64,000 nucleotides of DNA from Halobacteriovorax sp. GTDB lineage: Bacteria; Bdellovibrionota; Bacteriovoracia; Bacteriovoracales; Bacteriovoracaceae. Positions 26,701-57,406 of this stretch are shown here, in pieces; the first letter of the stretch is position 1, and each line of letters begins with the position of its first letter. Below the pieces are notes generated by a model. That model was not told where the DNA came from. It was given only the letters and a program-made list of their open reading frames with translations, and ran no database searches. The DNA is taken from NCBI GenBank assembly GCA_002720865.1, contig PBIO01000005.1:1-64000 (forward strand), in the 5' to 3' direction. Made by a program: the position numbers and the translations under genes.

Positions 26701-29048
26701 TGATTATCTGAAATAGAATTTAAAGCGCCAGGAGCTGCTAGAGTTAAAAACGCATCTTGAAGAGCGCCATTTCTAATTGAACCACCATTGGTGCTTAATG
26801 AATTGGTTGCCACATAATCAAGATCAGAGCTTATATCACCGGCAGTGACCGTATAAGTAAAGGTTAAGGTTTGGGTTCCAGTTCCAGCTGAGTAGCTTAC
26901 AACAGAGTCGGCCGCTCCTGTCTCTAATGTAATCTGCGGGGTACCGGACACATTAACAACTTCACTCCATTCAACAAGTATGTCTATATTCTCAGAGATA
27001 GCATAATTGCCATCGGCCTTAGAACTTCTTACTTGAGTCACTGAAGGACCAGAGGTGTCGACATCAATATTTTGATCATCCGAAATAGAACCGCTAAGAC
27101 CTGGGATTGAAAGTGTTAGAAGCGCTGGATTAACTCCATCGTCGATCGATCCTCCGTTCAGACTAAGAGCACCCGTATTTAAATAATCTAAATCCGAGTT
27201 CATCTCACCGTTAGAAATGGAATAATCAAAGGTTAAAGTGTCCGTCCCAGAGCCACTTGAATAATTAACAACAGCATCAGTTACACCGGTTTCTAAAGTT
27301 ATCTGAGGAGTACCTCCAACAATTACGACCTCACTAAAAACAACCTCAATAGGAACAGTCGTTCCAACTCCATAGGTTCCATTTCCAAGTGGGGTCTTAA
27401 CTTCAGAAACAAAAGGCTGAACGGTATCAATAACTATGGCCTTATCATCAGAGATTGAATTAGCTAACCCTGGAGTGGCAAGAGCGATGCCGGCATTATT
27501 ATTGGCAGAGTCGCGAATACTTCCCCCATTCAAATTAAGTGCTGAAGCACTTTGATAATCTAAATCTGAGCTTGAATCACCTGAACCAACCGAATAATTA
27601 AAAACAAGAGTTTGAGTTCCTGACCCCGTACTATAATTAACTACTCTATCAACGCCGCCAGTTTCTAAAGTCAACTGGGGAGTACCAATAATATTTACGG
27701 TTTCGTTATAGATGACTTCAATTGCAATATTTTCTGATACTCCGTAGGTTCCGTCTGCCTTACTCGTTGTTACTTCAGTTAGTACAGGCGAAGTCGTATC
27801 GACAACTACGGCCTGGTCATCGGAAATAGAATTTACTGCACCTGGGGTCGCCAAGGTCAAGTTTGCATTATTTCCAATAGCATCTTGAATCGTGGCCCCA
27901 TTTAAAACTAAGGACCCTGTTCCCACATAGTCTAAGTCTGCTGCATCATCACCAGCCACTATTGTATAAGAAAAATTTAAAGTATCAGAACCTGAGCCTG
28001 TCATGTAGTTGGCCGTCCTGTCGGTCACGTCCATGTCAAGCGTGAGCTGAGGGGTTCCTGCGGCCACTGTAACTGGTTCACTAAAAATGACCTGTACATT
28101 TATACTGGATCCAATTCCATAGGAAGCATCAATATTAGTTAGCTTTACTTCATTAACTGTTGGAATGGTAGTATCCCATCTCCAATTAATTGTATCCGTA
28201 CTAGAGTTTCCAAAACTATCAGTCCCTTGAAGCCTAATAATATAATCACCGTCAGTATCCGCGCTAATATTTGTATCCTCAGCGGCTGGTGTACCAAAGG
28301 TTACAATTCCTGGTCCTGAAACTTTAGTCCAGCTATAGGTTAAGGGATTGGCGTCTGTAACAGTAGCGTCCTGAAAGGTGACGGTAGAGACAATATTATC
28401 TGCTCCTGCATTTACGCTTGGGCTAGTTGCATCCCAATCTAATGTGAAAGTATCAAAAGCAGAATTTCCTGCTACATCCGTTGCCGTAAGCCTAATCGTA
28501 TAAGAGCCATCTGCCGTTACACTTAAAGAGGGGTCCTCAACATTGGCAGCAACGACTGAGCCAGGCCCACTATCGACACTCCATAAATAGGAAACAGAAT
28601 TAGTATCAGTAACTGTAGCGTTTTGAGTATAAGCTGAGTTTTTTAATGTGGCCGCGGTACCAGCATCAACAATTGGCGCCGTAGCATCGTATAAAAAACT
28701 AACCGTGTCTGAGGCCGTATCACCCGAGCCGGCCGTTACTGTTATTGATAAAACATACTCTCCCTCTACGGAGACTGTTGCGGTTGTATCTTCACTTGAG
28801 CTATTGCCAAAAACAACGGCGCCAGGACCTGAGACTTTTGACCAAGAAAATGTTTTATTGCTGGCCGAAGAAGATGTTGCATCTAGGTTAGCTGTACCAG
28901 AGTTTTGAGCAATATCAACCCCCGCATCCATGGTTAAATTAATACCTTGAATCGTAGGCTCAAAAACACTTTTACCCGCTTGTCCTTGCTTTTTACAAGA
29001 TGTAAAAAAAAGCAAAACGGAAAATATGATTAAAAGCAGCTTATTTAT
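23754..29048 (-). CDS. Giant repeat-rich surface lipoprotein with C-terminal lectin-like domain
   Basis: About 1764 residues. A lipoprotein signal peptide INKLLLIIFSVLLFFTSC with acylated Cys18 is complete only if translation begins at ATA 29048, behind GGGGGA; the nearest standard codon, TTG 29015, would leave only six residues before the Cys and has no ribosome site. Order: three PKD-like Ig repeats (about 35-290, each with W-x-K-V-S-G-P-G), eight repeats of about 122 residues (about 293-1273, TPQITLETG and SGSGTDTLTF types), a fourth PKD-like repeat, then a Cys-containing domain (about 1490-1640) resembling DUF1554/endostatin-like lectin folds, and a final beta domain. Likely an outer-membrane adhesin; binding partner unknown. 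Leftward, monocistronic. Confidence 0.85.
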   Translation of the reverse strand: MNKLLLIIFSVLLFFTSCKKQGQAGKSVFEPTIQGINLTMDAGVDIAQNSGTANLDATSSSASNKTFSWSKVSGPGAVVFGNSSSEDTTATVSVEGEYVLSITVTAGSGDTASDTVSFLYDATAPIVDAGTAATLKNSAYTQNATVTDTNSVSYLWSVDSGPGSVVAANVEDPSLSVTADGSYTIRLTATDVAGNSAFDTFTLDWDATSPSVNAGADNIVSTVTFQDATVTDANPLTYSWTKVSGPGIVTFGTPAAEDTNISADTDGDYIIRLQGTDSFGNSSTDTINWRWDTTIPTVNEVKLTNIDASYGIGSSINVQVIFSEPVTVAAGTPQLTLDMDVTDRTANYMTGSGSDTLNFSYTIVAGDDAADLDYVGTGSLVLNGATIQDAIGNNANLTLATPGAVNSISDDQAVVVDTTSPVLTEVTTSKADGTYGVSENIAIEVIYNETVNIIGTPQLTLETGGVDRVVNYSTGSGTQTLVFNYSVGSGDSSSDLDYQSASALNLNGGSIRDSANNNAGIALATPGLANSISDDKAIVIDTVQPFVSEVKTPLGNGTYGVGTTVPIEVVFSEVVIVGGTPQITLETGVTDAVVNYSSGSGTDTLTFDYSISNGEMNSDLDYLNTGALSLNGGSIDDGVNPALLTLSIPGLSGSISDDQNIDVDTSGPSVTQVRSSKADGNYAISENIDILVEWSEVVNVSGTPQITLETGAADSVVSYSAGTGTQTLTFTYTVTAGDISSDLDYVATNSLSTNGGSIRNGALQDAFLTLAAPGALNSISDNQAIAIDGVVPTVTQVRSSKANGYYNSGEVIDVLVEFSENVDVLGLPQITLETGATDAIVNYSSGSGTDTLTFQYTVGATDSNLDLDYETTGSLNTGGGSIRDSFGNDANILLVAPGGVGSISDNQAIVIDNTIPNVSSVEATNTDGGYTIGAPLSIKVIFDEAVTVSGTPEITLEMGATDKAATYSAGAGTDTLTFSYTVASGDTTGDLDYNSTFALVTAGGAIDDLAGNAANLNLASPGSPNSISDDQAIVIDTTIPTLNSVLTLKTDGAYGVGEEIDIVIQFSEVIEVSGFPQIELETGTIDEAVSYSSGSGSSLLTFRYTVKTGNISSDLDYKSTTSLSLNGGTLKDVGGNDVVTTLPSPGALNSISDDKDIVIDGSTPNIIEVKSSKVDGGYGTSEEIDILVVFNEAVFVTGTPQITLETGVTDRVVNYISGSASDTLVFRYTVQSGDINLDLDYSSTSSLVLNGGLIGDAVPNPADLSLPTPGFPGSISDDQQIIVDTILPIVNAGSDRSASSSFTQDAVITEDSTPLYSWVKVSGPGVVNFSPSSSVQDPNISVSVNGAYVIRLDVTDSAGNLSSDTFNLNWDNIPPPATDSFTAATTSGIDNGTIDITIDFPVDVSDYNLVQIRGAEGVTPPSGCSNGFLVKSYTVGQFIDETYEADTSYPGGQFSGRLCIWDSFGNLTSSQTFNSIIASKVHKVFVTNDTYGADLNSNFNSETFANSQEGADYRCQYQADLAGISTSSDKWISVLSTTNYTAFNKVAINGQGHNMSGETLFSNKFDFWDGILTNAIKFDEFDVSVGAQQTWTGTTTGGALAANHCTDFTSTSFLQNGNTGLADQSGNSWVSQGNSACSGNRSLICISQINIEKFTSLSITTGTSPREIDLSINLPMDNDVTRFYDKIEVYRKTGPGEPTFNCDGSDGSLKAQTFNGPFTQGQSIQYTDNTPGAPGTSYNYTICTFDKDLNPVNRDPVLNVSSGL
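25195..28170 (-). repeat. Eight tandem ~366-base coding repeats
   Basis: These encode eight consecutive copies of a module ending in SISDDQAIVIDT or a close variant. Each copy carries GTYGVGE-type, FSE-V, TPQITLETG, LDY-ST and LNGG-I-D-GN motifs. The copies are diverged at DNA level, so this is an old array rather than a recent expansion. The module is common in bacterial surface proteins. Confidence 0.85.
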
Positions 29049-32338: not shown

Positions 32339-33442
32339 TTACATGCCTACTTTTTGAAAGATTTTAACTTTATACATTTGAACCCTCTCTGATCTGATCT
32401 CATCAGAAAACTTGGGGGTGATTTCCTCATAACCTGAAACATCCACCTCAGGCTCACGTAAGTAGTTCCTTAAGACAACAACTCCACCTTCACTCATCAT
32501 ACCCCGAACTTCTTGCATGAAGTTCTTTTCAAGGTCGCCACTAAAATATGAAGGAACATCACTTAAGCTAGCATAGTCAAAACCATTTCCTGCTAAATCC
32601 GAAGCGGCCGAGCTTAGATCCTTATCTAATATATTCACTTTTGAACCAGACGTTAGGGCCTGCTGACAGGCATGAAAATTCTCCTCCTGCGCTTCAATTG
32701 TATTTCCATTTTCATTAATAATTCTTCCTTGAAAACAAAGATGCATAAAAAAGCTTTGGCTCGCTAAACCCTGGGTAAATAACCGCTCATAGGCCTCTCG
32801 GTAGTAATCAAAATGAGATTCTGGTACATTCTTTTTTATAAAGTCCCCTTTATATAATAGAGCGTTGAAGACACTTTTATTTCCAAGCGCAAAGAGAATT
32901 AGCTTCCACTTATTTTTAGGGAATTCATTATTATAGTAATGGATCTGTTTTTCTAAATCATCAAATTCTAAAACTTTTCTAGCATGCTTTCCAAGAACTA
33001 ACCTTACGACTTTAGACATTACAGAAAAGGTTTTTTCCCATTTTCCTTCGTATAGAAGTGCTCCCCACTTGACCCTTGAAAAATACTCAACAAAATACTC
33101 TCTTGCCTCCGGATCTAAATCTAATCTTTGAAATAACTCTTTTCTTCTGTCAGAAAAATCAGTTTTATCATAGGGTGAAAAACCCCAGAAAGTCATAAAC
33201 TCTTGATAGCTAAAGACTTCAAGGCTTTTTAACCTCAATTGAGTAATAAGAAGTTGCGGCTTTGCAACATCTATACAAGTTAACTCTGAGGGCGAGCAAG
33301 AAAGCAGAGGCAATGCCCTTGAGCCACACCCTGCAATGGTAAATATTTTTTTAGGCTTTAATTTATTTACAAGCTCGACTTCCATTCTTGTATCTTCATT
33401 ACCTAGACTATAATTTAAATTACTAAAATACTCTTGAGTCAT
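32339..33442 (-). CDS. BtaA-like 3-amino-3-carboxypropyl transferase (DUF3419)
   Basis: A 367-residue protein of the BtaA family, which moves the aminocarboxypropyl group of S-adenosylmethionine to diacylglycerol to make betaine-lipid precursors. Seen are IFTIAGCGSRALPLL (SAM loop), CIDVAKPQLLITQLRL and the family YQEFMTFWGFSP segment; a C-terminal methyltransferase-like half has FDYASLSDVPSY and GGVVVLRNYLREP. The start is ATG 33442, overlapping the upstream stop as ATGA. No BtaB methyltransferase lies nearby, so the acceptor may not be the classical one. Last gene of the leftward arm of the 32-44 kb cluster. Confidence 0.75.
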   Translation of the reverse strand: MTQEYFSNLNYSLGNEDTRMEVELVNKLKPKKIFTIAGCGSRALPLLSCSPSELTCIDVAKPQLLITQLRLKSLEVFSYQEFMTFWGFSPYDKTDFSDRRKELFQRLDLDPEAREYFVEYFSRVKWGALLYEGKWEKTFSVMSKVVRLVLGKHARKVLEFDDLEKQIHYYNNEFPKNKWKLILFALGNKSVFNALLYKGDFIKKNVPESHFDYYREAYERLFTQGLASQSFFMHLCFQGRIINENGNTIEAQEENFHACQQALTSGSKVNILDKDLSSAASDLAGNGFDYASLSDVPSYFSGDLEKNFMQEVRGMMSEGGVVVLRNYLREPEVDVSGYEEITPKFSDEIRSERVQMYKVKIFQKVGM

Positions 33443-35499
33443 TCCTTGCCCCAATCCTTTATCGTTTCTGTGGCATGACCTCGACAAAGATCAAACTCTT
33501 CATCTGTAATAAAACCATTATGCCCCATAATACTGGCCAGCCTCACTCCGTGCTCTTTGGCCAATTTATCTATTTCTAAAACTTTTTCGTAACTTATATT
33601 TCTACTTAAAGTAAAACTTTCAAACTTCGAGGCCATGGCAAGCAAGGCTGTTTCCGCTAAACAGGCATAAACAATATTGCCTTCTAATCCTATATCTACA
33701 TTAGAATCGACTTCGCCAGGAAGCTGGACTTCACCGCTGGCAATAACCATGACATCTGGTCTTTGTAATGCATCTTCTTCTTTAATATCAAAAGGTCTAC
33801 TTACATCACAGATAACACAGCCAGGCTTAACATCCATAATATCCATTATTTTCTTACCTCTTGCACTAGTGGTCGTAATTATAAGATCACAATCTTTTGA
33901 AAAAGTATCTGGAGAGGTGCCCACCTGGATATTGCATTCAGGGGCGATCGTTTGAATTTCTTCTTTTAGTTCTAAAAGCTTATAGGCCCTCGGCGCAACC
34001 AGGACTAAATCACTCCATGTTTGTGCTAAAATTTTTGCACTAACCGCTCCTATACTACCTGTTGCACCTACCACCATTACTTTACCGCGGTAAATATCCT
34101 CTTCTTTTTTGACAAAAGCGAGTTTATCGATAGCAAACTTGGCGGCCCAAAGTGTTGAGCAGGCAGATAATGAGTTACCAGTTGTTACTGGTATGGGAGA
34201 CTGATTGGCCACTGTTATTCCGGCGTCTCCTACAATTTTAGTATAAGCACCCAAACCAATAATGGCAGCTCCTCTTCTGTCGGCATTATGACAAAGAGTT
34301 GTTAGCTTGTTATAGATAGTATTTGGATCACTCTCCATAAGCTTTTTAGGAGTTTCTGTTACCGTGTAAATTAGCCCCTCAACTTCTTTTCCAGTCTTTT
34401 CTGATACAATCCCTTTAATTCTTCCATAATAAAATCCAGGAGAAAGACTCATTAACTCTTCCGCGGCACGTTCCAATGGCTTTGAATAAGGCTTTAAAAA
34501 CTTAAGAAGTGGATGCTTAAAAACCATGCTTGCCGAGAGTGGATGAATTATAAAAGCGAATTTATTTTCCGTGTCCTCCTGGGAATGATTCAGCTCCTTT
34601 AATTCACTTGAAAGCTTTAAAAGATCAATCCAATTTAAGACATCATCAGCATTCAATGGAGGTTCAATTCCTAGCTCTTTTCCAAAACTTAAAAATAATG
34701 CCTCTAATACGCCGAAGCTAATATTAGGATTATCGACTACCTGAGGCATACAAACAATGACATCACCTACACCAACCTGCTTAAATCTTCTTTCAAGTCC
34801 AGGACTTAAAAAGTCCACAATAACGGTCTTGCCTCTTAAATGCTCTAAACTAACTAAATTAAAAGTTGATTCATTCCCGACAAAAATATCAGCGTCGAAA
34901 AACTCTTTTAAATTATTGGTCAAATCCATATTTGAAATATCAAACTTCGACAAATTGGATCTTTTAATTTTCATCCTTTTAAGAACTGGTGTTAGAAACT
35001 TTACAAAATTTTCTAATTGCTTTGGCGTATTCAAATTAAATGGTAGCCCGGCAAAAAAATAAGGGTCCGCTAGTACAAGCTTACAACCAAATTCAATCAT
35101 CACATCCATTAAACTTTTCTGAAGAGCTCCAGAATAGAAGGCAACTTTCTTATTTCCCATTAATGATTTATTTTTTAAATAAAATTGTCTAATCGCCCAA
35201 GGAATATATACATCTTTAACAACTTGACCATCAACTGTCGGGGTCTGTCTTGCCAAGGCCCTGATCTTTTCGGCCTGGGGGTGAGTAAAGACATTACCTT
35301 TTATACTTATCTTTGGTGGAATCCCCGTCACGACTATGACGTCGCATTGTCCATCATACTTATGAATAATATTTTTAGTTAGATTGAAATTAAAATTAGT
35401 TGAAAACTGAGTTAGCCTAACCTCTTCCCCTCTAAAGTTTAAAACTTCATCGAAATTTGTATTATCTAGAGAATAAGCAATGCTAAGAATATGCTTCAT
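33439..35499 (-). CDS. Tandem acyl-ACP reductase-like protein, first copy degenerate
   Basis: A 686-residue protein. Residues about 314-680 resemble cyanobacterial long-chain acyl-ACP reductase (AAR), which makes fatty aldehydes: GLGAYTKIV, VTTGNSLSA (438-446), VMVVGATGSIGA (474-485) and VYACLAETALL with Cys613 at the place of the AAR catalytic cysteine. Residues 1-300 appear to be a second, decayed copy: KKVAFYSGALQKS aligns with the glycine-rich loop but lacks it, and ISFGVLEALFLSF aligns with the Cys region but has Val. It overlaps both neighbours by ATGA. Role inferred: aldehyde formation from an acyl thioester. Confidence 0.72.
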   Translation of the reverse strand: MKHILSIAYSLDNTNFDEVLNFRGEEVRLTQFSTNFNFNLTKNIIHKYDGQCDVIVVTGIPPKISIKGNVFTHPQAEKIRALARQTPTVDGQVVKDVYIPWAIRQFYLKNKSLMGNKKVAFYSGALQKSLMDVMIEFGCKLVLADPYFFAGLPFNLNTPKQLENFVKFLTPVLKRMKIKRSNLSKFDISNMDLTNNLKEFFDADIFVGNESTFNLVSLEHLRGKTVIVDFLSPGLERRFKQVGVGDVIVCMPQVVDNPNISFGVLEALFLSFGKELGIEPPLNADDVLNWIDLLKLSSELKELNHSQEDTENKFAFIIHPLSASMVFKHPLLKFLKPYSKPLERAAEELMSLSPGFYYGRIKGIVSEKTGKEVEGLIYTVTETPKKLMESDPNTIYNKLTTLCHNADRRGAAIIGLGAYTKIVGDAGITVANQSPIPVTTGNSLSACSTLWAAKFAIDKLAFVKKEEDIYRGKVMVVGATGSIGAVSAKILAQTWSDLVLVAPRAYKLLELKEEIQTIAPECNIQVGTSPDTFSKDCDLIITTTSARGKKIMDIMDVKPGCVICDVSRPFDIKEEDALQRPDVMVIASGEVQLPGEVDSNVDIGLEGNIVYACLAETALLAMASKFESFTLSRNISYEKVLEIDKLAKEHGVRLASIMGHNGFITDEEFDLCRGHATETIKDWGKE

Positions 35500-36527
35500 T
35501 CAAACATTCTCCGCCCATAAGAGTAAAAATTTTCAGAATATTCACTATAGGAGGCTATTTTATTTTTTTCAAAATCACGCTCTAGAGAACTTGTATCGTA
35601 AACACAGCTTCCGTACATATATAAAAGAAGCTCTGATGGCAGACCAATTTTAGGTAGAATAAATTTATAAAGCGGTGATTTTGGAAGTGCTATTAAAGAT
35701 AGATTAAGACCAAAAGTTTTAAGGGACTTTTCAACAAAAACCCTAACAAGGGGCGGATCTTTAGCGATCACATGATAGCAACTAACACCTTCATCCTTTG
35801 GATTAAGAACACCCTCTTTTAAGATTTCAGCAGCATTATCGACTGGCATTAATGGCATTGTGGCTTTTTCATCATATGGAAGAGGTAAATATTTTAAGAG
35901 ATTGATTTTAGCTTTTTCTTTATAAACCTTATTCAGTAACTTAAAGAAATAATAAGGTCCATCAACCTTACTCATTTTTCCAGTAACTGAATCACCAATT
36001 AATATTCCAAGTCTATAAATCTGGACACTACCGCTAAAACGATAATTCCTGATCATTAACTCAGCATCATATTTAGTTTTAGCATAATGATTATTAAACT
36101 TCTGTCCCTCACTCAATTGCTCTTCATTGAATATTCCAGAATAACTTCCTGCCACCGCAATTGTGCTTACATAATGAATATGTTTTAACTTTTCACAATT
36201 GTTAGCTAAATAGAGAACATTCTGTGTCCCAACCACGTTGTACATAAAGCAGCTGCTGTATGGTCCTTCAATATCGTAGTAGGCAGCACCATGAAAGATT
36301 GTATCAACAGACTCACGAATTTCTTTAGATAGGCCAGCATCTTCGATAATATCCGGCGATGAAATATCACCTTTTACTAAAACAACTGAAGAGAATTTTG
36401 AGTACTCAGCCTCTAGCCTTCGAGAAGGTCTTCTACATAGGAGAAATAATTTTTCGCAGTGGGGTGCCAAGATCTCAACAAGCTCTTTTCCTAAAAAGCC
36501 AGTTCCACCGGTCATTAAAATTTTCAT
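35496..36527 (-). CDS. Fatty-acyl-reductase-like extended SDR
   Basis: A 343-residue NAD(P)-dependent extended short-chain dehydrogenase. MTGGTGFLGKELVE is the dinucleotide loop; VDTIFHGAAYYDI, HYVSTIAVAG and YAKTKYDAE (Tyr-x-x-x-Lys) are catalytic motifs, and RLGILIGDSVTGKM is the motif following them in fatty acyl-CoA reductases and thioester reductase domains (NAD_binding_4). OleD-type 3-oxoacyl reductases are related alternatives. It lies between the lipid kinase (9-base gap) and the AAR-like gene (ATGA overlap). Confidence 0.78.
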   Translation of the reverse strand: MKILMTGGTGFLGKELVEILAPHCEKLFLLCRRPSRRLEAEYSKFSSVVLVKGDISSPDIIEDAGLSKEIRESVDTIFHGAAYYDIEGPYSSCFMYNVVGTQNVLYLANNCEKLKHIHYVSTIAVAGSYSGIFNEEQLSEGQKFNNHYAKTKYDAELMIRNYRFSGSVQIYRLGILIGDSVTGKMSKVDGPYYFFKLLNKVYKEKAKINLLKYLPLPYDEKATMPLMPVDNAAEILKEGVLNPKDEGVSCYHVIAKDPPLVRVFVEKSLKTFGLNLSLIALPKSPLYKFILPKIGLPSELLLYMYGSCVYDTSSLERDFEKNKIASYSEYSENFYSYGRRMFE

Positions 36528-36536
36528 TACTCTATT

Positions 36537-37508
36537 CTAAGATAGGCTGACGTCGTTGACTAGGTCTACTAAATCAGTGCCGATATGAGCCGAGTAAACT
36601 TTAAGAGCATCTTTTTCAACTTCAATATCAAAAACCTCAGACTCTTCTGAGTGTAAGATTTCACCATCTCCAAAGAACTCTAGCTTTTTATTTGGTGTTA
36701 GATTCTTAATGCTTATTTTCTCTGACTCAAAGCTAATAAAGTTTGGATCATCGATTGGAAGGTTACCTTTAGCTACTTGTAAGATACATTGGATCAATTT
36801 TTGTCTTGAATCATGAGTCAAAATACTTACATTAAATTTGCCATCGTTATTGTTAGTTTTTGGAGCAATATTAAAAGTACCGGCCAACATCGGTTGGTTA
36901 TTAACTAAAATACAGGAGCTTTTTACATTTCCAGAAAACTCTTTAGACTCAATTTCTAAATTATACTCTTCAAAATTAACGCCTAAAAGCTCTTGGGCCA
37001 CGAAAAAACTATAGATAGACTTACCTGAAAATTTCATAATTTTCTTAAAGACTGGGTATTTTCTTCTAATTGTATTTATCTTTTTGGCAACTTCTCCACC
37101 TAGCCCAATTCCACCATTGGTGGCCATGAGTCTATTATTAATTCTTATCAGGTCAATATTTGTAATTTGCTGATTTCTAATACACTGACAAATCTTCTTT
37201 ATATTTTCATTCATTCCTAATTCACTGGCTAAATCATTAGCCGTTCCACCAGGTATAACAAGAAGACCTATATCTTTGTTGGCCAAGTTTTGTATTAACG
37301 TATTAACAGTACCATCCCCGCCAACACTAACTACGGCATCGACATTATTTTGAATATCTTCTTTTAAATTCTCATGTAATTCAGCTAGGCCATTAGGAGT
37401 TCTAAAATTTAAGTTTGACCTAAAAAGACTACGGGTAATCTTTCCTTTCCAGAAATCATAGTCCGTATTGGCGGCCCTTTGATTTAGATAAACACTAATG
37501 TTTTGCAT
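36537..37508 (-). CDS. Diacylglycerol kinase-family lipid kinase
   Basis: A 323-residue DAGK_cat/YegS-type kinase that phosphorylates diacylglycerol or sphingoid-like lipids with ATP. VVSVGGDGTVNTLI (nucleotide-binding GGDGT) and VIPGGTANDLASEL are diagnostic; the C-terminal beta domain carries IEVEKDALKVYSA. The start is ATG 37508 after GAGGAAATAACC; the upstream 28-codon extension has no family match. First gene of the leftward arm; the lipid substrate is probably a product of this cluster. Confidence 0.88.
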   Translation of the reverse strand: MQNISVYLNQRAANTDYDFWKGKITRSLFRSNLNFRTPNGLAELHENLKEDIQNNVDAVVSVGGDGTVNTLIQNLANKDIGLLVIPGGTANDLASELGMNENIKKICQCIRNQQITNIDLIRINNRLMATNGGIGLGGEVAKKINTIRRKYPVFKKIMKFSGKSIYSFFVAQELLGVNFEEYNLEIESKEFSGNVKSSCILVNNQPMLAGTFNIAPKTNNNDGKFNVSILTHDSRQKLIQCILQVAKGNLPIDDPNFISFESEKISIKNLTPNKKLEFFGDGEILHSEESEVFDIEVEKDALKVYSAHIGTDLVDLVNDVSLS

Positions 37509-37672
37509 GGTTATTTCCTCTCTCAATACCCCATCATATCTTTTATAAGTACCCGAATCCACGCAAAATGACGCGTCGTGTAATAAGTGCATACTATGTC
37601 GGGATTTTTGACAGGTTTTCCTGTATTATTAGGGCTTTGAGATATGTAAATACGAGGCCAAGGAGGGCCAAG

Positions 37673-38446
37673 TTGTCGAAACTAAGAATTCTGCTTGTTA
37701 CTAGCCGAATAACTTATATGCCCGAAAATTATCTGGCCCTGTTTGAAAGCTTTTTAAATAAAAGAGCTGACTGGGTTAAAGGCCTTGTCCTTCTTGATAA
37801 TCTAGATAAGAAAACCCTGCTCCAGTCACTAGGTCTTCCCCTTCTAGGCGTTAGAAAATTAGGCCTACAACTTATTAAAAATATTTTAGAGACACCTTTA
37901 AAAAAAAGAGAAATTCTTTTTGAAAAGTATAATATTCCCACTATGACCTGGGATACGATGAACTCTGAGTCTGCCTTAGATTTTGTAGACCGTCATTCAA
38001 TAGACCTTATTATTAATTTAAGAACTAGGTGCATCTATAAGTCTGAAATATTAAATGCTCCAAAGATTGGTTGCCTAAATATTCATCACGGACTCTTACC
38101 AAACTACAAAGGAACGTTCTGTGATCTTTACGCTTTAACGGAAAACCGTGATGCGGGATTTTCAATACATGAAATGAATGAAAAAATTGATGCTGGAAAA
38201 ATACATAAAATCATTCCAGTAGCAAAAAAAGAAGACATAAGAGTTAAAAATAAATTTTGTTACCTAAAGTATCTTTCTCTCACATCTGAAAAAGAAGCCG
38301 CGGCTCTATTTGAACTTTGCCAAGAAATTGAAAAGCTCAACAAATTCCCTGAAGGGCTGCCCAATAACCCCACGAAAAAAGTATTTACTAAAAACCCTGA
38401 TCGAAAAAAAATTAAAACATTTTTAAATAAAGGTTTTCTTTTATGA
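37673..38446 (+). CDS. Formyltransferase-fold enzyme
   Basis: A 257-residue protein of the formyl_trans_N family (Fmt, PurN, ArnA-N). LNIHHGLLPNYKGTFCDLYA (about 140-159) holds the catalytic Asn/His and the LLPxYKG loop, and a later GFSIHEMNEKIDAGKI matches the family ending. The start is TTG 37673, six bases after AAGGAGG, which gives MSKLRILLVTSR; the upstream ATG 37568 would place 35 unmatched residues in front. Substrate unknown; in such clusters formyltransferases usually modify an amino sugar or amine. First gene of the rightward arm. Confidence 0.78.
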   Translation: MSKLRILLVTSRITYMPENYLALFESFLNKRADWVKGLVLLDNLDKKTLLQSLGLPLLGVRKLGLQLIKNILETPLKKREILFEKYNIPTMTWDTMNSESALDFVDRHSIDLIINLRTRCIYKSEILNAPKIGCLNIHHGLLPNYKGTFCDLYALTENRDAGFSIHEMNEKIDAGKIHKIIPVAKKEDIRVKNKFCYLKYLSLTSEKEAAALFELCQEIEKLNKFPEGLPNNPTKKVFTKNPDRKKIKTFLNKGFLL

Positions 38447-39144
38447 GTGTTATTCACGAATTTACATTTGTTTGCCACCATGGCTCTCCGGGCACACCGG
38501 AAGATTTTAAATTTATCTCAGAAGGACTTAGTCAATATAATTGGCATCCTGTTGACAGGTATTCAGGCGATAAAGGTCCTAGCGAAGGAGCGCATATTCA
38601 GATTGGCTACAGTTGGGGTTCAGTAAGTGCTATCAATGCAGCTGTAAAAAATCCGGAGCATACGAAGGCCGTTATTTTAATTAGTCCGTATATGTTTGTT
38701 GACAAGAAAATGTCTCCGGCCATTAAAACAATCCTAAGCTTACCCATCCTCGGGAATATTCTTCTTTCAAAAATGGCACCGAAAAGCATAGGAAAAATGA
38801 TTAAAGATTCTTCCTCCCCAAAAGAAATTCCTGAAAATTATAAGCCATGTGAAAAGCTTTTCTCTAACCCAAAAATCTTAAAACCCGCTTTATTTGAGAA
38901 AGATATTCCAACCACTAATATTATTGAGAATCTTAAGTCTTTAAAGAAATTAGCTATACCTGTCCTACTCCTAAGAGGGGATTCCGATAAGACATCGGGA
39001 GAAAATAAACAATTTAGCGAGCTAGCAAAGCACTTAGATGTTGCAGAAGTCATATTTACTGAAGGTGGACACGCTCTTCCATGGACCCATACACAAGGAG
39101 TTATTGATGAAATTAAAAAATTTCTATCTAACTTTAATCAGTAA
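38443..39144 (+). CDS. Alpha/beta-hydrolase
   Basis: A 233-residue hydrolase. CHHGSPGTPEDF is the oxyanion His-Gly region, GYSWGS the nucleophile elbow (Ser about 66), RGDSDKTSG the acid, and EGGHALPW the catalytic His (about 215). It is small, with a modest cap. It is coupled by ATGA to the formyltransferase and overlaps the ligase start by 38 bases. OleB-like (beta-lactone decarboxylase) and thioesterase roles are both possible; OleB is larger, so thioesterase or lipase is more likely. Confidence 0.82.
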   Translation: MSVIHEFTFVCHHGSPGTPEDFKFISEGLSQYNWHPVDRYSGDKGPSEGAHIQIGYSWGSVSAINAAVKNPEHTKAVILISPYMFVDKKMSPAIKTILSLPILGNILLSKMAPKSIGKMIKDSSSPKEIPENYKPCEKLFSNPKILKPALFEKDIPTTNIIENLKSLKKLAIPVLLLRGDSDKTSGENKQFSELAKHLDVAEVIFTEGGHALPWTHTQGVIDEIKKFLSNFNQ

Positions 39145-40903
39145 ACTTTCGGCAAGCGAAAAGGGTTTTCCACTAAATCTAAATGGAAATAAGATTTCCC
39201 AGGAAAAACCTTTTGGTTATCATGAAGGAGAACAAAGTCTTAACAATGTGGCTTCATTCTTAACCCAACATGTAAAAACAATTCCCGATAAACCAATTCT
39301 TAGTTGGGTTCACCCCGACAAGTTAAAGGAATGGAGCTATAACTTAGACGACCCACTTCCTCACGACTCCGTTACCGTCAGAGAGCTTGATCATGTCGTA
39401 GCGGTTATTGCCACTGGCTTTAAAAAACTTGGTATTAAAAAAGGTGATCGGGTCATCATCTTTGTTCCAATGTGTCTTTATTTGTATGCTGCCATGTTTG
39501 CCCTTCAAAAAATTGGAGCGATTGCAACCTTCTTAGATGGTTGGGCAAGACGAGATCAAATGGATGTAGCTGCCAAAGTTGTTGGGGCCAAGGCCTTTAT
39601 CTCTGTTGAAAAAGCATTTGATTATATGGGAGATCTTCCCGAGATTGGAAAAATCCCTTTAAAAATATCGATAGGCCCCACCACAAAAAAATATAGCGCT
39701 AGTATTGAATCCCTAATGAAGGGCATTAAAAGATCAACCACTGAGCCTGTTGAAAAAGAGCATACGGCCTTAATTACCTTTACGACTGGGTCTTCTGGAA
39801 CTCCAAAAGGTGCTGATCGAACTCATAGATTCCTTGCAGCTCAACATTATGCCCTAGATAAACATTTACCCTTTAACGATACAGATTTTGATTTACCTGT
39901 GTTTCCTATATTTTCTCTAAATAATTTAGCAGCTGGTGTTACCACTGTACTACCGGCCATCGATGTAGGACAGGCCGGTGACAAAGATGCTCTTGTTCTT
40001 ATTGCCCAAATGAAGTCAGCAGGGGTAACAACGACGACTCTGTCCCCTAGTTTATTAAGGCATGTTTATGCTTACTGCTTAGACAATGATATCACTATTC
40101 CCTTTATTAGAAGAATAATCACGGGTGGGGCACCAATCTCTAGAGATGACTTAGTTAAAACGACTAAGATCGCTCCAAACGCTGAAGTACTAGTACTCTA
40201 TGGCTCCACTGAAGTCGAACCAATGGCCCATATAGAAGCCAAAGATATGATTGCTCGAAAAGACAATCCCGATCCTGAATGGGAAGATGAGGGCGTTAAT
40301 GTTGGAAAATTCGATGATGGTCTTGCTGTTAAATATTTAAAGATTAATAAAAATCCTATTACAGTTAGTTCCGATATGGATTGGAAAGATCTTGAAGTTG
40401 AAGATGGCAAGCCTGGGGAAATAATCGTAAGCGGTGAGCATGTTTGCCAAAACTATTACAATAATGAAGAAGCCTTTTTTAAGAGCAAAATAAAAGATCA
40501 TAACGGTATTGTCTGGCACCGTACTGGAGATATAGGCCGAGTCGACGAACAAGGCGATCTTTGGTTCATGGGAAGGATTCATAATGCCATCAACCGAAAT
40601 GGAGAATACTTTTTTCCTGTAAGAGCGGAAGTAATAATGAAAAAACTCCCCTTTGTTGAGTATGCTGCTTACCTTGGCATGCCCGACCCAGAGCTTGGAG
40701 AGAAGACCTATGCAGTCTACTCTGTCTGGGAAAATGCGCACGGAGATAAAGAGTCCTGGGAAAAGGAAATAAAAAGAGTTATGGACAAAAACGGTGTCAC
40801 TGTAGACAAAATCGTTTTAACTGACAAAATACCGCTAGATGCTAGACACCAAAGTAAAGTTGAATACGAAGTTTTAAGAAAACAACTTCAGGAGCAAGCA
40901 TGA
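39107..40903 (+). CDS. AMP-forming ligase, OleC/acyl-CoA synthetase-like
   Basis: A 598-residue adenylate-forming enzyme. Motifs: TFTTGSSGTPKGADRTH (P-loop), LPVFPIFSLNNLAAG, VLYGSTEVEP (A5), WHRTGDIGRVDEQGDLWFMG (A7-A8) and HQSKVEYEVL with the catalytic Lys. The segments around LPVFPIF and YGSTEVEP resemble OleC (beta-lactone synthetase) more than ordinary FadD, but no OleA thiolase is present. The start is ATG 39107, six bases after AAGGAG and inside the hydrolase gene. Residues 1-30 are a basic amphipathic helix that may touch the membrane. Presumed to activate a carboxylic acid in this pathway. Confidence 0.85.
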   Translation: MKLKNFYLTLISKLSASEKGFPLNLNGNKISQEKPFGYHEGEQSLNNVASFLTQHVKTIPDKPILSWVHPDKLKEWSYNLDDPLPHDSVTVRELDHVVAVIATGFKKLGIKKGDRVIIFVPMCLYLYAAMFALQKIGAIATFLDGWARRDQMDVAAKVVGAKAFISVEKAFDYMGDLPEIGKIPLKISIGPTTKKYSASIESLMKGIKRSTTEPVEKEHTALITFTTGSSGTPKGADRTHRFLAAQHYALDKHLPFNDTDFDLPVFPIFSLNNLAAGVTTVLPAIDVGQAGDKDALVLIAQMKSAGVTTTTLSPSLLRHVYAYCLDNDITIPFIRRIITGGAPISRDDLVKTTKIAPNAEVLVLYGSTEVEPMAHIEAKDMIARKDNPDPEWEDEGVNVGKFDDGLAVKYLKINKNPITVSSDMDWKDLEVEDGKPGEIIVSGEHVCQNYYNNEEAFFKSKIKDHNGIVWHRTGDIGRVDEQGDLWFMGRIHNAINRNGEYFFPVRAEVIMKKLPFVEYAAYLGMPDPELGEKTYAVYSVWENAHGDKESWEKEIKRVMDKNGVTVDKIVLTDKIPLDARHQSKVEYEVLRKQLQEQA

Positions 40904-41832
40904 GCCAATATGTTCAAGAAAGAGTAGAACATCTCGCGAAGTGGTGGGAGTTTACTTCAGAAAGATTTGAGCCCGTAAGTCACTTTATGATGATTGCTCT
41001 ATTCTTCAGTGCTCACTACCTTGTGGCCGATGCCTCTAAGTACGTCATCTTGGAGCCTATTCACCTGGCCTGGGTCACATTTGGAACAGCTGCATTTTTT
41101 TTAAAACTTAGATTTTATGATGAAATTAAAGACTTTGAAACAGATGTAGCTTTTAATCCTACCCGACCACTTCCTAGAGGTCTCCTAAAGCATTTTGATA
41201 TGAAAAAGGGAATTGAGCATTGTATTGTTCTAGAAATAATCTTTTTCACCTCTTGTGGAATGCCAGGCTTTGTGGCCATCCTCTTGGCCATTGGCTACTC
41301 ACTCTTAATGTATAGAGAGTTTTTTATTGGCGAGAAAATAAGACCACATCTGACAACCTATGCCACCAGTCATACCATAGTAACTATCTTTCTATCCTTG
41401 GCCATATTCTCGGCCCTAAGTCGTTACTACCCTTGGAATCATGAAGCGGATTTCTACTACTTTGCTCTCTTAAGCTGGCTCCTCTTTAATATCTTTGAAC
41501 TTGGTAGAAAGATATATCAGCCATGTGAAGAAAGAGAAGGTGTGGATACATACTCAAGCATCTGGGGAAAGTTTGGGGCCGTGATGCTTATCTTTGTCCA
41601 TGCAGTGGCAGCGGCTGTACTTACGCTGCTAATCTCAACTGTTGATTTTTTCTTTATGCAAGCCTATCAAGCAGTTTCAATTGGGATACTTATTATTATA
41701 AGCGCTATTTACCTAGTAGGGAAAAGACCAATTTCTGGACTAATGTTTAGAAAGTTTAGTGAGGTTTATATCGTTTTAATTTATGCAGGAATAATCACAA
41801 ATTATATTTTAAGAAAATACTACTGGGAATAA
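40900..41832 (+). CDS. UbiA-family prenyltransferase-like membrane protein
   Basis: A 310-residue protein with about eight transmembrane helices. The first Asp-rich motif is RFYDEIKDFETD, followed by FNPTRPLPRG (about 70-93), exactly the UbiA pattern for binding prenyl diphosphate with Mg2+. The second motif is weaker: ELGRKIYQPCEEREGVDTYS has acidic residues in altered spacing. It overlaps the ligase by ATGA. It presumably joins a prenyl group to a product of the cluster; acceptor unknown. Confidence 0.8.
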   Translation: MSQYVQERVEHLAKWWEFTSERFEPVSHFMMIALFFSAHYLVADASKYVILEPIHLAWVTFGTAAFFLKLRFYDEIKDFETDVAFNPTRPLPRGLLKHFDMKKGIEHCIVLEIIFFTSCGMPGFVAILLAIGYSLLMYREFFIGEKIRPHLTTYATSHTIVTIFLSLAIFSALSRYYPWNHEADFYYFALLSWLLFNIFELGRKIYQPCEEREGVDTYSSIWGKFGAVMLIFVHAVAAAVLTLLISTVDFFFMQAYQAVSIGILIIISAIYLVGKRPISGLMFRKFSEVYIVLIYAGIITNYILRKYYWE

Positions 41833-41835
41833 TAT

Positions 41836-44517
41836 ATGCTTTACATAGATGAAAACTCTACACAAAATTATGCGGCTCGGATGGCAGGAGGAAAAGGCTT
41901 TAACCTCTACCTCATGACCAAGGCCGGACTAAAAGTTCCTTCTTGGATCGTCCTTGGCCCAGACTGCTTTGAAGAGTTTAAGTCCTTGTCCAATATTAAT
42001 GAAAAGTTTACTGAACTTGAAAGCACAATTTCAGACCCAAAGGAGCTTTGTGAAAAAATTGAAGCTCTTATCTTAGAAACTGAATACCCTTTAAAAGTAA
42101 AAGAGTTCATTAAAAAAACTTTCGATAAATTGGGAAAGGAGCTTATCTCAGTTAGGTCTTCCGCCTTAGATGAAGATGGAAGCTCGCACTCTTTCGCTGG
42201 ACAGCTATCAAGTTACCTTTATATTAGCAGTTTTGATGCTGTTCTAGAGTCTGTAAAGAAATGCTGGGCCAGTGCTTACAGTGAAAGAGGGCTGGTCTAC
42301 CGAAGGGAAAATAAGCTTTCATCAGAAAATATTCAAGTTGCTGTCGTCCTACAAGAGATGATTTGCCCAGAAAAGGCCGGGGTGCTCTTTACTTGTGACC
42401 CTATAAATGAAGATCCCGATCACCTTTTGATAAACTCTGTTTATGGAGTTGGCGAAGGCTTGGTTTCAGGCCTCTATGATGCCGACAACTTTAAAATTGA
42501 AAAAGAATCGGGAAAGATCATCGAGCAGGAAATTACAGACAAACCAAAAATGCTTATTCAAGATACTCAAAAGCAAGAACCTAAAGAAGTCGAGGTAGCT
42601 GAAGATAAAATTAATATCTCTTCACTAAATGATGAAGAAATTGCTTCACTACACAAGATGGCAAAAGACATTGAGAAGCTCTACAGGTTCCCCCAGGATG
42701 TCGAGTGGGCCATTCAGGACAATACTGTCTACCTACTCCAGTCAAGACCTGTAACCACTAACGTAAGGGCAGGAACAGGAAACCTTTTTGTATGGGATAA
42801 TTCAAATATCGTAGAATCCTATGGCGGAATTACAATGCCATTAACCTTCGGATTCGCTCACTATGTTTATCATCAAGTCTATGTACAGTTTTGTGAGATT
42901 CTTCTAGTCCCTGCTAAGCAAATCAGACAAATGGATCATTTTCTTAAAGACATGCTGGGGCTATTTTACGGGCGAGTCTATTATAATCTTTTAAACTGGT
43001 ACAAGCTTACCTCAATCCTACCTGGCTATAAATACAACCGTGGCTTTATGGAGACCATGATGGGAACTGACGAGGCTTTGCAGGATGAGATTGCAGAAAG
43101 AGTTAAACCTCCAAGCTTTCATCACACTTTTGGAGCAACCGTCAGAAGAATAATAGTTGGTTTTAAATTTTTATATTTCCACTATAGAATTCAAACTGTC
43201 GTTGATGATTTTCTTAGCTATTTTTATAAAAAATATAATAAGTTTCGAAAAATTAATTTTGACCATATGCCGGCAGATGAAATTTATGATTATTATAAGC
43301 AGATGGAAAAAGAAATGCTTTGGAAGTGGCATGCTCCTATTATCAATGATTTTTTAACAATGGTGCATTATGGAATTTTTAAAAAACTTACTGAGAAGTG
43401 GCTATCTCACTTAGGGGATGCTTTTCATAACGACCTTCTGGCAGGAAATGGAAATCTAGAAAGCGCAGAGCCCACTAAAAGATTAATTATAATGGCCGGG
43501 AAAATTGATAAAATTGAAGGGTTGAAAAATCTAATACTCAATACCCCAAATGCAGATTGTCTAGAGTCATTAAACCAGAGTGAATATAAAGATTTCTATG
43601 AAGAGGTCAAAGAATATATCGATCTCTTTGGTTTTAGATGTATGAGTGAAATGAAGCTAGAGCAAAAAGACTTACATCAAGACCCATCCCTACTTTTTGT
43701 TTTTTTAAAAAACCTCATTAATGCTGGGCAAACGGACTTAGAGGTATTTGAGAAAAGAGAAAAAGAAATAAGAGAGAACGCAGAAAATTTATTAAGGCAA
43801 AATATTGGTGGCATAAGAGGTCTAATTTATAGTTGGTCACTTAAGCACGCGAGAAAGGCCGTAATGAACCGCGAGAATACAAGATTTTGCCGTACTAGAG
43901 TTTATGGAATAGTTAGAAGTATGTTCTATGGAATTGGTAAAGACTATACTGCTAAGAAAATTATTGATGTTAAAGAAGATATCTTCTACTTAAATTTGCA
44001 AGAACTTAAAGGATCCCTAGAAGGAACTTTAACCACTCAAGACCTAAAAGGCATAATCAATGAGAGAAGAAGACAGTATGATGCCTATGCCGAAGGCGAG
44101 GAACCAGCTCCACGTTTTTTCACAAGGGGGCCATGTTATTGGCAAAATCAACATTTTCCCATCGAAGAAGTCGTTCTAGATGATTCACCACTTGAAGAAA
44201 ACCAGATGAGAGGAATTCCCTGCTGTCCTGGAGAAATTGAAGGAGAAGTTAAACTCATTCTTGATCCCGGGGATGATATGGTGTTAAACGGTGAGATTCT
44301 AGTCACAAAAAGAACAGATCCGGGCTGGATTCCCCTATACCCTTCGGCTAAAGCTCTTCTTGTTGAAAGAGGTGGCCTCCTTTCCCATTCGGCCATTGTG
44401 GCAAGAGAGATGGGTCTACCGACCATTGTTTCGATAAAAGGACTAACATCAAAACTAGAAACTGGTATGCGTATTAAGATGAACGGTGAAACGGGGCTTA
44501 TTGAAATTCTAGAATAA
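41836..44517 (+). CDS. PEP synthase/rifampicin phosphotransferase-like enzyme
   Basis: An 893-residue three-part enzyme. Residues 1-320 are the ATP-grasp pyruvate/PEP-binding domain (GGKGFNL, SVRSSALDEDG, FAGQLSSYLY, DVEWAIQDNTVYLLQSRP). The centre (about 330-800) is unlike PpsA and resembles the substrate domain of rifampicin phosphotransferase-type enzymes. The C-terminus has the swivelling phosphohistidine domain GGLLSHSAIVAREMGLP with His851. It lacks the PEP-binding TIM barrel of PpsA, so it probably transfers a phosphate from ATP to a small molecule. Three bases separate it from the UbiA gene. Last gene, followed by a strong terminator. Confidence 0.82.
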   Translation: MLYIDENSTQNYAARMAGGKGFNLYLMTKAGLKVPSWIVLGPDCFEEFKSLSNINEKFTELESTISDPKELCEKIEALILETEYPLKVKEFIKKTFDKLGKELISVRSSALDEDGSSHSFAGQLSSYLYISSFDAVLESVKKCWASAYSERGLVYRRENKLSSENIQVAVVLQEMICPEKAGVLFTCDPINEDPDHLLINSVYGVGEGLVSGLYDADNFKIEKESGKIIEQEITDKPKMLIQDTQKQEPKEVEVAEDKINISSLNDEEIASLHKMAKDIEKLYRFPQDVEWAIQDNTVYLLQSRPVTTNVRAGTGNLFVWDNSNIVESYGGITMPLTFGFAHYVYHQVYVQFCEILLVPAKQIRQMDHFLKDMLGLFYGRVYYNLLNWYKLTSILPGYKYNRGFMETMMGTDEALQDEIAERVKPPSFHHTFGATVRRIIVGFKFLYFHYRIQTVVDDFLSYFYKKYNKFRKINFDHMPADEIYDYYKQMEKEMLWKWHAPIINDFLTMVHYGIFKKLTEKWLSHLGDAFHNDLLAGNGNLESAEPTKRLIIMAGKIDKIEGLKNLILNTPNADCLESLNQSEYKDFYEEVKEYIDLFGFRCMSEMKLEQKDLHQDPSLLFVFLKNLINAGQTDLEVFEKREKEIRENAENLLRQNIGGIRGLIYSWSLKHARKAVMNRENTRFCRTRVYGIVRSMFYGIGKDYTAKKIIDVKEDIFYLNLQELKGSLEGTLTTQDLKGIINERRRQYDAYAEGEEPAPRFFTRGPCYWQNQHFPIEEVVLDDSPLEENQMRGIPCCPGEIEGEVKLILDPGDDMVLNGEILVTKRTDPGWIPLYPSAKALLVERGGLLSHSAIVAREMGLPTIVSIKGLTSKLETGMRIKMNGETGLIEILE

Positions 44518-44541: not shown

Positions 44542-44567
44542 AAAAAGGGACCCACTGAGGTCCTTTT
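44542..44567 (+). terminator. Terminator of the rightward cluster operon
   Basis: AAAAAGGGACC and GGTCCTTTTTTT form a strong stem around a short loop, with a seven-base T run, 25 bases after the last gene of the cluster. It closes the rightward operon. Confidence 0.9.
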
Positions 44568-44633
44568 TTTAATTTTGAGACTACTCCTATGGAATAATTT
44601 GAAAAAACAAATCAAACACCCTTAGGAGGGTAT

Positions 44634-45244: not shown

Positions 45245-46918
45245 TTATAAAGCGATACTTAAATCAGTTTCAAGTGCTTCTAACTCTTCTTTTTTAGCAG
45301 ACTTATCAATAACCCCATTATCATGATAAGTTGCTCCGTGAGCGGCATTGGCCCTACCTGAAGGGTCTATATCATAGTCTTGCCAACGAGGAATCCATCT
45401 TTTGACTAACTTCTCTGAAGACTTATGAGGGAACTTCTTTTCAAAAATTCTTCGGTATAAGAAGGCCTCTTTAGTTAATGGTGTATTATGAGGGTAGAGC
45501 TCTTCCCTTTTCGCAAACTCAATATCACTTACGGCCTGCTCAGCAAAATCCTTTAGACCGTCAACCCATGAATAACCTACTCCGTCTGAGAATTGCTCTT
45601 TTTGTCTCCATAAAACGGAATCTGGTAAGTATGGATCATCAGGCGTATCGAAGGCTTTTCTTAAAACATATTTTTCCATTTTCTCGCCTTGAACAATCAT
45701 TTTAAGTTCTGGATCTAGGCTCATGACTTCATCTAAAAATTTTAAATCTAAAAACGGAACTCTGGCCTCGACACCAGCGCCCATTGTGGATCGGTCTGCT
45801 CTTTGCACGTCAGAAGTATGAAGCCTTTTTACTCGTCTTAAGGCCTCTTCATGAAATTCTTTAGCACTTGGGGCATGACCAAAATAAAGGTAACCTCCAA
45901 ACATCTCATCTGCCCCCTCCCCAGAAAGTACGACTTTTACACCCTGATCTCTGATATATTTTGTCATAATATACATTGGTGTGGAGGCCCTTACAGTGGT
46001 CACATCATAGGTTTCAACTTTTTCTATTAATTCTTCTACTAAGCTAATACCTTCTTCAACTGTATAAGTGATTTCGTGATGCTCAGTACCTAAGAACTCG
46101 GCCACTTCTCTGGCCTTTACTAAATCTTTTGAGTCCTTATCCAATCCAATTGAAAAACTTTTTATTGTCTTTCCTTGTTTTTTCATTTCTCTAGCTACAA
46201 TAGATGAAACTAATGAAGAATCTAAGCCACCTGAGAGGAGTACCCCTACCGGAACGTCGCTCATTAATCTTTTTTTACAGGCTTCAGTTAAAAGTTCTCT
46301 TATTCTTTCAGGTCCTCTAGTTGGCAACTGCTCTTCAGTCCACCACGTTGGTTTAAAGTATCTTACAAAGCCCTCATCAGTGGTGTAATAATGACCTACA
46401 GGAAATGCTTCAATAGTTTCACAAACATCCTGCAAGGACTTTGACTCACTTGCAAACCACATGGCCCCAGCTGAGTCAGTTCCATAAAATAGAGGTTTAA
46501 TACCTATAGGATCTCTAGCAACAAAAAGTTTATCTTTATCTGCGATGATAAACGAAAAGACCCCATCTAATTTTTTAACTATATCTACGCCCCATTCTTC
46601 ATAACCATGAAGGATGATTTCGCTATCGGACTTTGTTCTTCTTGTATGTGGTTTTTTTAGTTCGGATCTCAGCACTTCGTGATTATAAATCTCACCATTA
46701 TGAACAAGATAAGCACCGTCAGTTCCCTCAATTGGTTGCCTGCCAGAATGAAGATCGACAATGGAAAGCCTTTCGTGACAAAGAATGGTACCCCCTGAAG
46801 TAACCACATGACCGCCCTCATCTGGACCTCTATGCACTAAACGCCTTGAGCACTCAATGGCCTTTTCTAGAGTTTTTGTTACTTCTTTCGCTTTATAGAC
46901 TGCCAAAATACCACACAT
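45245..46918 (-). CDS. asnB: Asparagine synthetase, glutamine-hydrolysing
   Basis: A 557-residue enzyme amidating aspartate with glutamine and ATP. Cys2 (MCGILAV) is the N-terminal glutaminase nucleophile after Met removal; RLVHRGPDEGG, HNGEIYNHE and ARDPIGIKPL complete that domain. The synthetase half has VLLSGGLDSSLV (PP-loop), SGEGADEMFGGY and EARVPFLD. Length matches E. coli AsnB (554). TAGGAG precedes the ATG. Monocistronic; about 190 AT-rich bases upstream hold no gene. Confidence 0.96.
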   Translation of the reverse strand: MCGILAVYKAKEVTKTLEKAIECSRRLVHRGPDEGGHVVTSGGTILCHERLSIVDLHSGRQPIEGTDGAYLVHNGEIYNHEVLRSELKKPHTRRTKSDSEIILHGYEEWGVDIVKKLDGVFSFIIADKDKLFVARDPIGIKPLFYGTDSAGAMWFASESKSLQDVCETIEAFPVGHYYTTDEGFVRYFKPTWWTEEQLPTRGPERIRELLTEACKKRLMSDVPVGVLLSGGLDSSLVSSIVAREMKKQGKTIKSFSIGLDKDSKDLVKAREVAEFLGTEHHEITYTVEEGISLVEELIEKVETYDVTTVRASTPMYIMTKYIRDQGVKVVLSGEGADEMFGGYLYFGHAPSAKEFHEEALRRVKRLHTSDVQRADRSTMGAGVEARVPFLDLKFLDEVMSLDPELKMIVQGEKMEKYVLRKAFDTPDDPYLPDSVLWRQKEQFSDGVGYSWVDGLKDFAEQAVSDIEFAKREELYPHNTPLTKEAFLYRRIFEKKFPHKSSEKLVKRWIPRWQDYDIDPSGRANAAHGATYHDNGVIDKSAKKEELEALETDLSIAL

Positions 46919-57232: not shown

Positions 57233-57406
57233 GTTTGTTGTCCTTGTTAGTTTTTCGTATTGCCGTTTTTTTTCGTTGAGGCATAAAACCAAACCGCCTT
57301 TATTATGCCAACTTACAACTTCTTACAGTTGTTGTGTTATTTCGTCGGCCAAATACGGGGTGCATTAAGTGAATTAAATTGGAAACTTACATCTGACTAA
57401 GTGCAG

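Follow-up and report, generated by a model that had tools for sequence, protein, structure and literature searches.

A conserved divergent nine-gene cluster of Halobacteriovorax and its relatives as a candidate pathway for a specialised membrane lipid

Introduction

Enzyme families known from betaine lipid, prodigiosin, tambjamine and ether lipid synthesis are encoded side by side in a nine-gene cluster that we analysed in a 64,000-nucleotide stretch of DNA from Halobacteriovorax sp. (GenBank assembly GCA_002720865.1, contig PBIO01000005.1, positions 1 to 64,000; hereafter the window). Its leftward operon encodes a lipid kinase (DGK), an extended short-chain dehydrogenase/reductase (SDR) resembling fatty-acyl reductases (FAR), a two-domain acyl-thioester reductase (AAR) and a BtaA-like protein, while the rightward operon encodes a formyltransferase (FMT), an alpha/beta hydrolase (ABH), an OleC-like AMP-forming acyl ligase, a UbiA-superfamily transferase and a phosphohistidine dikinase (PEPS). 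With the BtaA/BtaB pathway to the betaine lipid diacylglyceryltrimethylhomoserine (DGTS) the cluster shares a DUF3419 enzyme, predicted to place a homoserine moiety derived from S-adenosylmethionine (SAM) on a lipid, but it has an FMT, no BtaB and eight further enzymes that include the reductases, UbiA and the dikinase. The prodigiosin and tambjamine pathways offer an AAR-type reductase domain (PigE/TamH), a dikinase with ATP-grasp and His domains (PigC/TamQ) and, for tambjamine, an acyl ligase; the cluster differs from both in having neither an aminotransferase domain nor a pyrrole pathway, and its proteins score far below the cut-offs of these families. In archaea, ether lipids are made by digeranylgeranylglyceryl phosphate (DGGGP) synthase and CarS. 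The cluster UbiA is closest in fold to the former, and in related clusters its subfamily is paired with a CarS-like protein, whereas the window variant has BtaA instead of CarS, contains fatty-acyl reductases and belongs to a group of relatives in which no geranylgeranylglyceryl phosphate (GGGP) synthase was found.

Two further systems bear on parts of the cluster. In rifampin phosphotransferase (Rph) the ATP-grasp, central and C-terminal phosphohistidine domains follow the same order as in PEPS, although the first part of the PEPS central region is unaligned in sequence and its setting is a lipid cluster with no sign of antibiotic resistance. The ElbD/FcrA alkyl ether lipid systems of myxobacteria likewise tie a fatty-alcohol-forming reductase to membrane lipid genes, and the HMGR-like FcrA reductases produce fatty alcohols that are the proposed supply for ether lipids (PMC11948995). 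The window, in contrast, has separate enzymes of other families, with UbiA and a dikinase rather than a PlsC-type fusion; its AAR is of a different family from the HMGR-type FcrA, and an HMGR-like protein is present in a related locus (L154).

The nine genes are conserved and inherited together and almost certainly constitute one functional unit, whose product is probably a lipid. The best overall explanation, to which we give a little less than an even chance, is a biosynthetic unit whose product is a specialised glycerolipid, probably of the ether type, that bears a homoserine-type head group and most likely resides in the outer membrane. A described pathway that combines these nine enzymes is not known to us, and the open-access literature searched yielded none; within that scope the same statement in a preliminary description of this DNA holds. 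Each enzyme family is known and their assembly is not, and a new class of lipid is a genuine possibility.

Results

The cluster is conserved and inherited as a unit

Presence and absence of the genes were surveyed in 97 relatives, and narrower gene searches covered 59. Complete divergent copies with identical gene order were found in nine sampled genera of the Bacteriovoracaceae, which places the locus far beyond chance, and all nine genes are co-directional in one locus from another family (L048) and in L105. The window genome (4.9 Mb) has a genus-mate with the same locus, and most of the close loci carry the labels Bacteriovoracaceae, Bacteriovorax or Halobacteriovorax, a lineage that includes known bacterial predators. 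The specific FMT and UbiA families occur in an identical set of 19 of the 97 genomes and in none besides (Fisher P = 1.4e-20, a value made optimistic by the kinship of the genomes). Among these 19, AAR and BtaA are always present, either full-length or fragmented, and the PEPS of the nine-gene arrangement (class A) is found in 18, the contig of the remaining genome stopping ahead of PEPS. AAR itself extends to 28 genomes, every one of which also has BtaA (28/28). For the preliminary description, homologues scattered with no co-occurrence would have refuted the idea of a pathway; the families do co-occur, and even where the two operons are far apart or on separate contigs, as in G004 and G050, both have been retained. 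Distances between proteins are correlated (AAR-PEPS, r 0.95; AAR-OleC, 0.92), as in genes that are inherited together, although shared species history produces this signal as well. An AsnB-type asparagine synthetase gene (window 45245-46918, minus strand) adjoins the cluster, and since this synteny is kept in several genera the locus looks vertically inherited.

The leftward operon encodes predicted acyl-reducing and head-group enzymes

The C-terminal half of AAR has profile matches in the PDB to the reductase domain of PigE (4ppm, 6.9e-38) and to a cyanobacterial acyl-ACP reductase (6jzq, 1.1e-10), and the same half of an AlphaFold model (pLDDT 85) superimposes on 6jzq with a VIA Z score of 34.7. 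A GATGSIG motif and Cys613 are invariant (alignment A1). Scores against the NCBIfam equivalogs fall below both cut-offs (AcACP_reductase, 53/449.7 bits; PigE, the best match, 162/850 bits), and this half is best regarded as a predicted AAR/PigE-type reductase on the basis of its fold, NAD(P) motif and active-site Cys. The protein had been described as a tandem AAR, which does not hold: the similarity is confined to the C-half, where most structural matches of the model also fall, the N-half has no PDB match by sequence, and a second AAR domain was rejected for it on an hhalign probability of 0.4% between the two halves. A stand-alone paralogue of the N-half with 45% identity is encoded elsewhere in the window genome (L161:2995-3951; G000:C17:2995-3951), and its existence suggests that this half is a separate domain that has a role of its own. 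Stand-alone paralogues are also present in G001, G002, G021 and G046.

The neighbouring FAR-like SDR matches PF07993 (1.6e-37) with Ser121, Tyr148 and Lys152 conserved (alignment A4), and in DGK the motifs GGDGT, PGGTANDLA and FFGDGE are invariant or nearly so (alignment A5). The DUF3419 domain spans the full length of the BtaA-like protein (PF11899, 115.9 bits against a cut-off of 28.2), which is thus a predicted SAM-dependent 3-amino-3-carboxypropyl transferase that would provide a homoserine head group. Neither the nine genes nor the class-A gene order includes a methyltransferase that could be the N-methylating partner BtaB.

The rightward operon pairs a UbiA subfamily with a dikinase lacking a PEP-binding domain

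A model of UbiA (AF2, pLDDT 90.7) has as its closest structures archaeal DGGGP synthase and ApUbiA (Z 17.6-19.3, Foldseek/VIA). The first Asp-rich motif is present, with D74, D78 and D82 of D74xxxD78xxxD82 invariant (alignment A2), but the second is replaced in both class A and class D by E200xxRK204...Y218, and this E-RK-Y motif is a signature of the subfamily. The UbiA proteins of the two classes are of one subfamily (hhalign, 99.8%).

PEPS shares its layout of ATP-grasp, middle and C-terminal His domains with Listeria Rph (5fbs, 2e-81), the catalytic residue being His851 within an invariant His motif. Its Pfam domains are PPDK_N and PEP-utilizers, with no PEP-utilizers_C domain or PEP-binding TIM barrel, and the chain stops past the His domain. 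The protein exceeds the cut-off of an NCBIfam model named for PEP synthase (PRK06241.2-2, 1071 bits against 883) and falls below that of the PigC model (378/1300 bits). Without the barrel the label "PEP synthase" is misleading, and the PEP-synthase-like phosphotransferase of the preliminary description is better viewed as an Rph/PigC-type dikinase.

Catalytic motifs are also conserved in the other three proteins of this operon: the Asn/His/Asp motif of FMT (checked in 14 sequences), GYSxG and the His of ABH, and the P-loop and C-terminal motifs of the OleC-like ligase. The ligase matches PF00501 (4e-39) and NF006754 (1.6e-105; 353 bits, under the cut-off of 478), and OleC models score it below their cut-off (203/900 bits). 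In most other genera ABH and the ligase form a single fused protein of ~800 residues.

Rearranged loci place the core enzymes among lipid genes

Three modules are recurrently found together in related loci: one that reduces acyl groups, the PEPS-UbiA core and one for the head group. Loci of classes B-D add a GNAT protein, a cytochrome P450, an ABC transporter of the MacB/FtsX (Lol) type and a LolA_like carrier, and in two class B loci (L051 and L055) the AMP-ligase is fused to UbiA. A CarS-like (CDP-archaeol synthase) protein occurs in L057, L058, L083 and L086, adjoining either PEPS-UbiA or the DGK-FAR-AAR trio, and in three of these (L057, L058 and L086) the UbiA subfamily is paired with both the CarS-like protein and PEPS. 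A more distant CarS locus without PEPS (L157) carries phosphatidylserine decarboxylase. The LolA-like, MacB/Lol and CarS-like neighbours, together with the phosphatidylserine decarboxylase, PlsC-type and desaturase genes of the more distant CarS loci, favour a membrane lipid, and the Lol/MacB-type exporter and LolA-like carrier suggest that it is destined for the outer membrane. The preliminary description had proposed a membrane or a signalling lipid; these neighbours speak for the former.

Several of these loci have features of their own. On one contig of G046 a CarS-methyltransferase-desaturase-PEPS-P450 set (L152, G046:C92:120500-140499) lies ~20 kb from the class-A cluster, and this genome holds two related lipid clusters on a single contig. 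CarS-PEPS loci with a methyltransferase, a PlsC-type acyltransferase, a desaturase and a small UbiA-like protein were found at L154:6254-16133 and L153:9333-15437, the former with, in addition, a thioesterase and a fusion of an HMGR-like reductase with an APH kinase. The small UbiA-like protein of L152-L154 shows weak similarity confined to its N-terminus (73%). At L058:1987-4917, next to a GNAT-P450-PEPS-UbiA-CarS set, lies a TamH/PigE-like fusion of a class III aminotransferase and an AAR-like reductase.

Discussion

A proposed route to a homoserine-type glycerolipid

In the route that we propose, all substrates, the sequence of the reactions, the ether linkage, the N-formyl capping and the outer-membrane destination are our inferences. 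The OleC-like ligase would activate a fatty acid, with the fused or adjacent ABH editing or releasing it. The C-domain of AAR, whose fold, family and catalytic residues are evident, would reduce an acyl thioester to an aldehyde via Cys613, and the FAR-like SDR would take the aldehyde to the alcohol. Phosphorylation of an alcohol through His851 of the dikinase may supply or prime the substrate of UbiA, which on its fold and motifs could link a prenyl or a long-chain allylic or alkyl group to a glycerol-type acceptor. The polar end would be finished by the lipid kinase and the BtaA-like enzyme, through phosphorylation and transfer of a SAM-derived 3-amino-3-carboxypropyl group, and FMT might cap the amine in place of the N-methylation of betaine lipids. 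FMT, ABH and the ligase would be variant-specific decorations or a means of chain supply. In the rearranged relatives a CDP-archaeol-synthase-like enzyme would take over the head-group step, with the addition of a dedicated Lol-type exporter. As an exact, step-by-step chemistry this scheme is tentative, somewhat more so than the glycerolipid reading as a whole.

A number of observations weigh against the proposal. UbiA enzymes normally require allylic donors, and the cluster contains no gene for a prenyl donor. The likeness of its UbiA to DGGGP synthase is modest (16% identity), with ApUbiA structurally tied. GGGP synthase (PcrB) was over the cut-off in none of the 59 relatives, in a search in which the controls rang, which argues against the archaeal acceptor. 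A sequence search of the PDB returned no relative of BtaA, the function of DUF3419 being assigned here by family, and the roles given to FMT, ABH and the ligase are guesses. The window locus itself has no LolA or ABC genes, the idea of export coming from related loci, and the aminotransferase-reductase fusion of L058 would fit an amine product. The lipid and the transcription of the two operons are predictions from sequence.

If the glycerolipid reading is correct, relatives of Halobacteriovorax would build a dedicated membrane lipid by chemistry that is undescribed as a pathway. Acyl reduction would feed a UbiA working with a phosphohistidine dikinase, BtaA and CarS-like head-group modules would be interchangeable, and the fold of an ether-lipid synthase would have a non-archaeal use; the product might also allow a predatory lineage to be recognised by its lipids. 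In its boldest form the idea is of a new bacterial lipid class, a fatty-alcohol-derived glycerol ether (made by UbiA primed by the dikinase) with an N-formyl-homoserine head group and export to the outer membrane, its pathway belonging to a wider modular family across Bdellovibrionota in which reductase and head-group modules are exchanged around a PEPS-UbiA core; this we regard as doubtful.

Alternative products

The alternative that survives best, though still unlikely, is a prodiginine- or tambjamine-like alkaloid or other lipidic natural product, in which a fatty aldehyde formed by the ligase and AAR is condensed with an amine or other nucleophile by a PigC/TamQ-like dikinase. PigE is the best match of the AAR C-half in both NCBIfam and the PDB, PEPS matches PigC, and L058 carries the TamH/PigE-like aminotransferase-reductase fusion. 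These scores are, however, far under the curated cut-offs, the cluster AAR lacks the aminotransferase domain, pyrrole genes are missing from the cluster, and BtaA, the lipid kinase and the CarS, LolA and phosphatidylserine decarboxylase neighbours indicate lipids.

An archaeal-type isoprenoid glycerol ether phospholipid, with UbiA as a true DGGGP synthase, would account for the nearest structures and for the CarS-like neighbours in class D. We consider it improbable given the missing PcrB, the central place of fatty-acid reductases in the cluster and the fact that no CarS-like gene was found in the window genome (G000).

Synthesis of olefins, by OleB/OleC-like proteins and an OleD-like SDR, or of wax esters from the fatty alcohol, is very improbable. 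The ABH-ligase fusion is reminiscent of OleBC and the ligase is OleC-like, and outside the phylum, in Desulfobacterales, the AAR family stands beside wax-ester synthase (WS/DGAT) and an alcohol dehydrogenase, a fatty-alcohol context. The cluster nevertheless has no OleA thiolase, its ligase scores poorly against OleC models, and BtaA and FMT are left unexplained; WS/DGAT was found in 0/59 relatives, a weak negative since no control genome rang.

Least probable of all is a prenylated cofactor or quinone-like pathway with UbiA acting on a ligase-activated aromatic acid, for which the UbiA-ligase fusion speaks but into which the lipid kinase, BtaA, the acyl reductase and the LolA-like neighbours do not fit and for which class A has no aromatic or methylation genes.

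The plasmalogen desaturase family CarF (PF10520) was also considered and rejected, with no member in the window genome and members in two of the 59 relatives, neither of them class A.

Gene organisation

The nine open reading frames of the preliminary description, with their coordinates, strands and named families, were upheld by the reading-frame check and by Pfam and NCBIfam, as were its compact junctions and the strong terminator behind the rightward operon (Table 1). ATGA overlaps occur at the AAR/BtaA, FAR/AAR, FMT/ABH and OleC/UbiA junctions, DGK and FAR are separated by 9 bp and UbiA and PEPS by 3 bp, and the ABH and OleC genes share 38 bases, the OleC start being an ATG preceded by AAGGAG. 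The divergence placed at about 37.5-37.7 kb also stands, with different starts on either side: that of DGK was moved from 37592 to 37508 on the basis of a Shine-Dalgarno site and relatives, and that of FMT from 37568 to a TTG at 37673, preceded by AAGGAGG. With the starts corrected, the operons do not overlap and diverge from the region between them. The BtaA start was likewise reset, to 33442. A sigma-70 promoter scan against shuffles gave no convincing candidate.

Table 1. Features of the divergent cluster, in window coordinates.
Feature	Position	Strand	Basis or remark
BtaA-like DUF3419 protein	32339..33442	-	PF11899; start set by ATGA overlap with AAR; alignment A3
Two-domain acyl-thioester reductase (AAR)	33439..35499	-	N-half 1-305; AAR/PigE-type C-half 313-676
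FAR-like extended SDR	35496..36527	-	NAD_binding_4 PF07993; alignment A4
Lipid kinase (DGK)	36537..37508	-	DAGK_cat and YegS_C (Pfam); alignment A5
Divergent intergenic region, 164 bp	37509..37672		Sequence and corrected starts on either side
Formyltransferase (FMT)	37673..38446	+	PF00551; TTG start
Alpha/beta hydrolase (ABH)	38443..39144	+	PF12146
OleC/PRK09274-like AMP-forming acyl ligase	39107..40903	+	PF00501, NF006754
UbiA-superfamily transferase	40900..41832	+	Alignment A2, AF2 model, PDB relatives
Rph/PigC-type phosphohistidine dikinase (PEPS)	41836..44517	+	Similarity to 5fbs; His851
Intrinsic terminator, 3' of rightward operon	44542..44569	+	11 pairs and T tract

Elsewhere in the window, on the minus strand, 23754-29015 encodes a 1753-residue protein with many imperfect repeats of ~110 residues, adhesin-like by eye and with no tandem array found at the DNA level, and 56360-57292 and 57825-58859 are a tandem pair of similar genes for trypsin-like secreted proteases.

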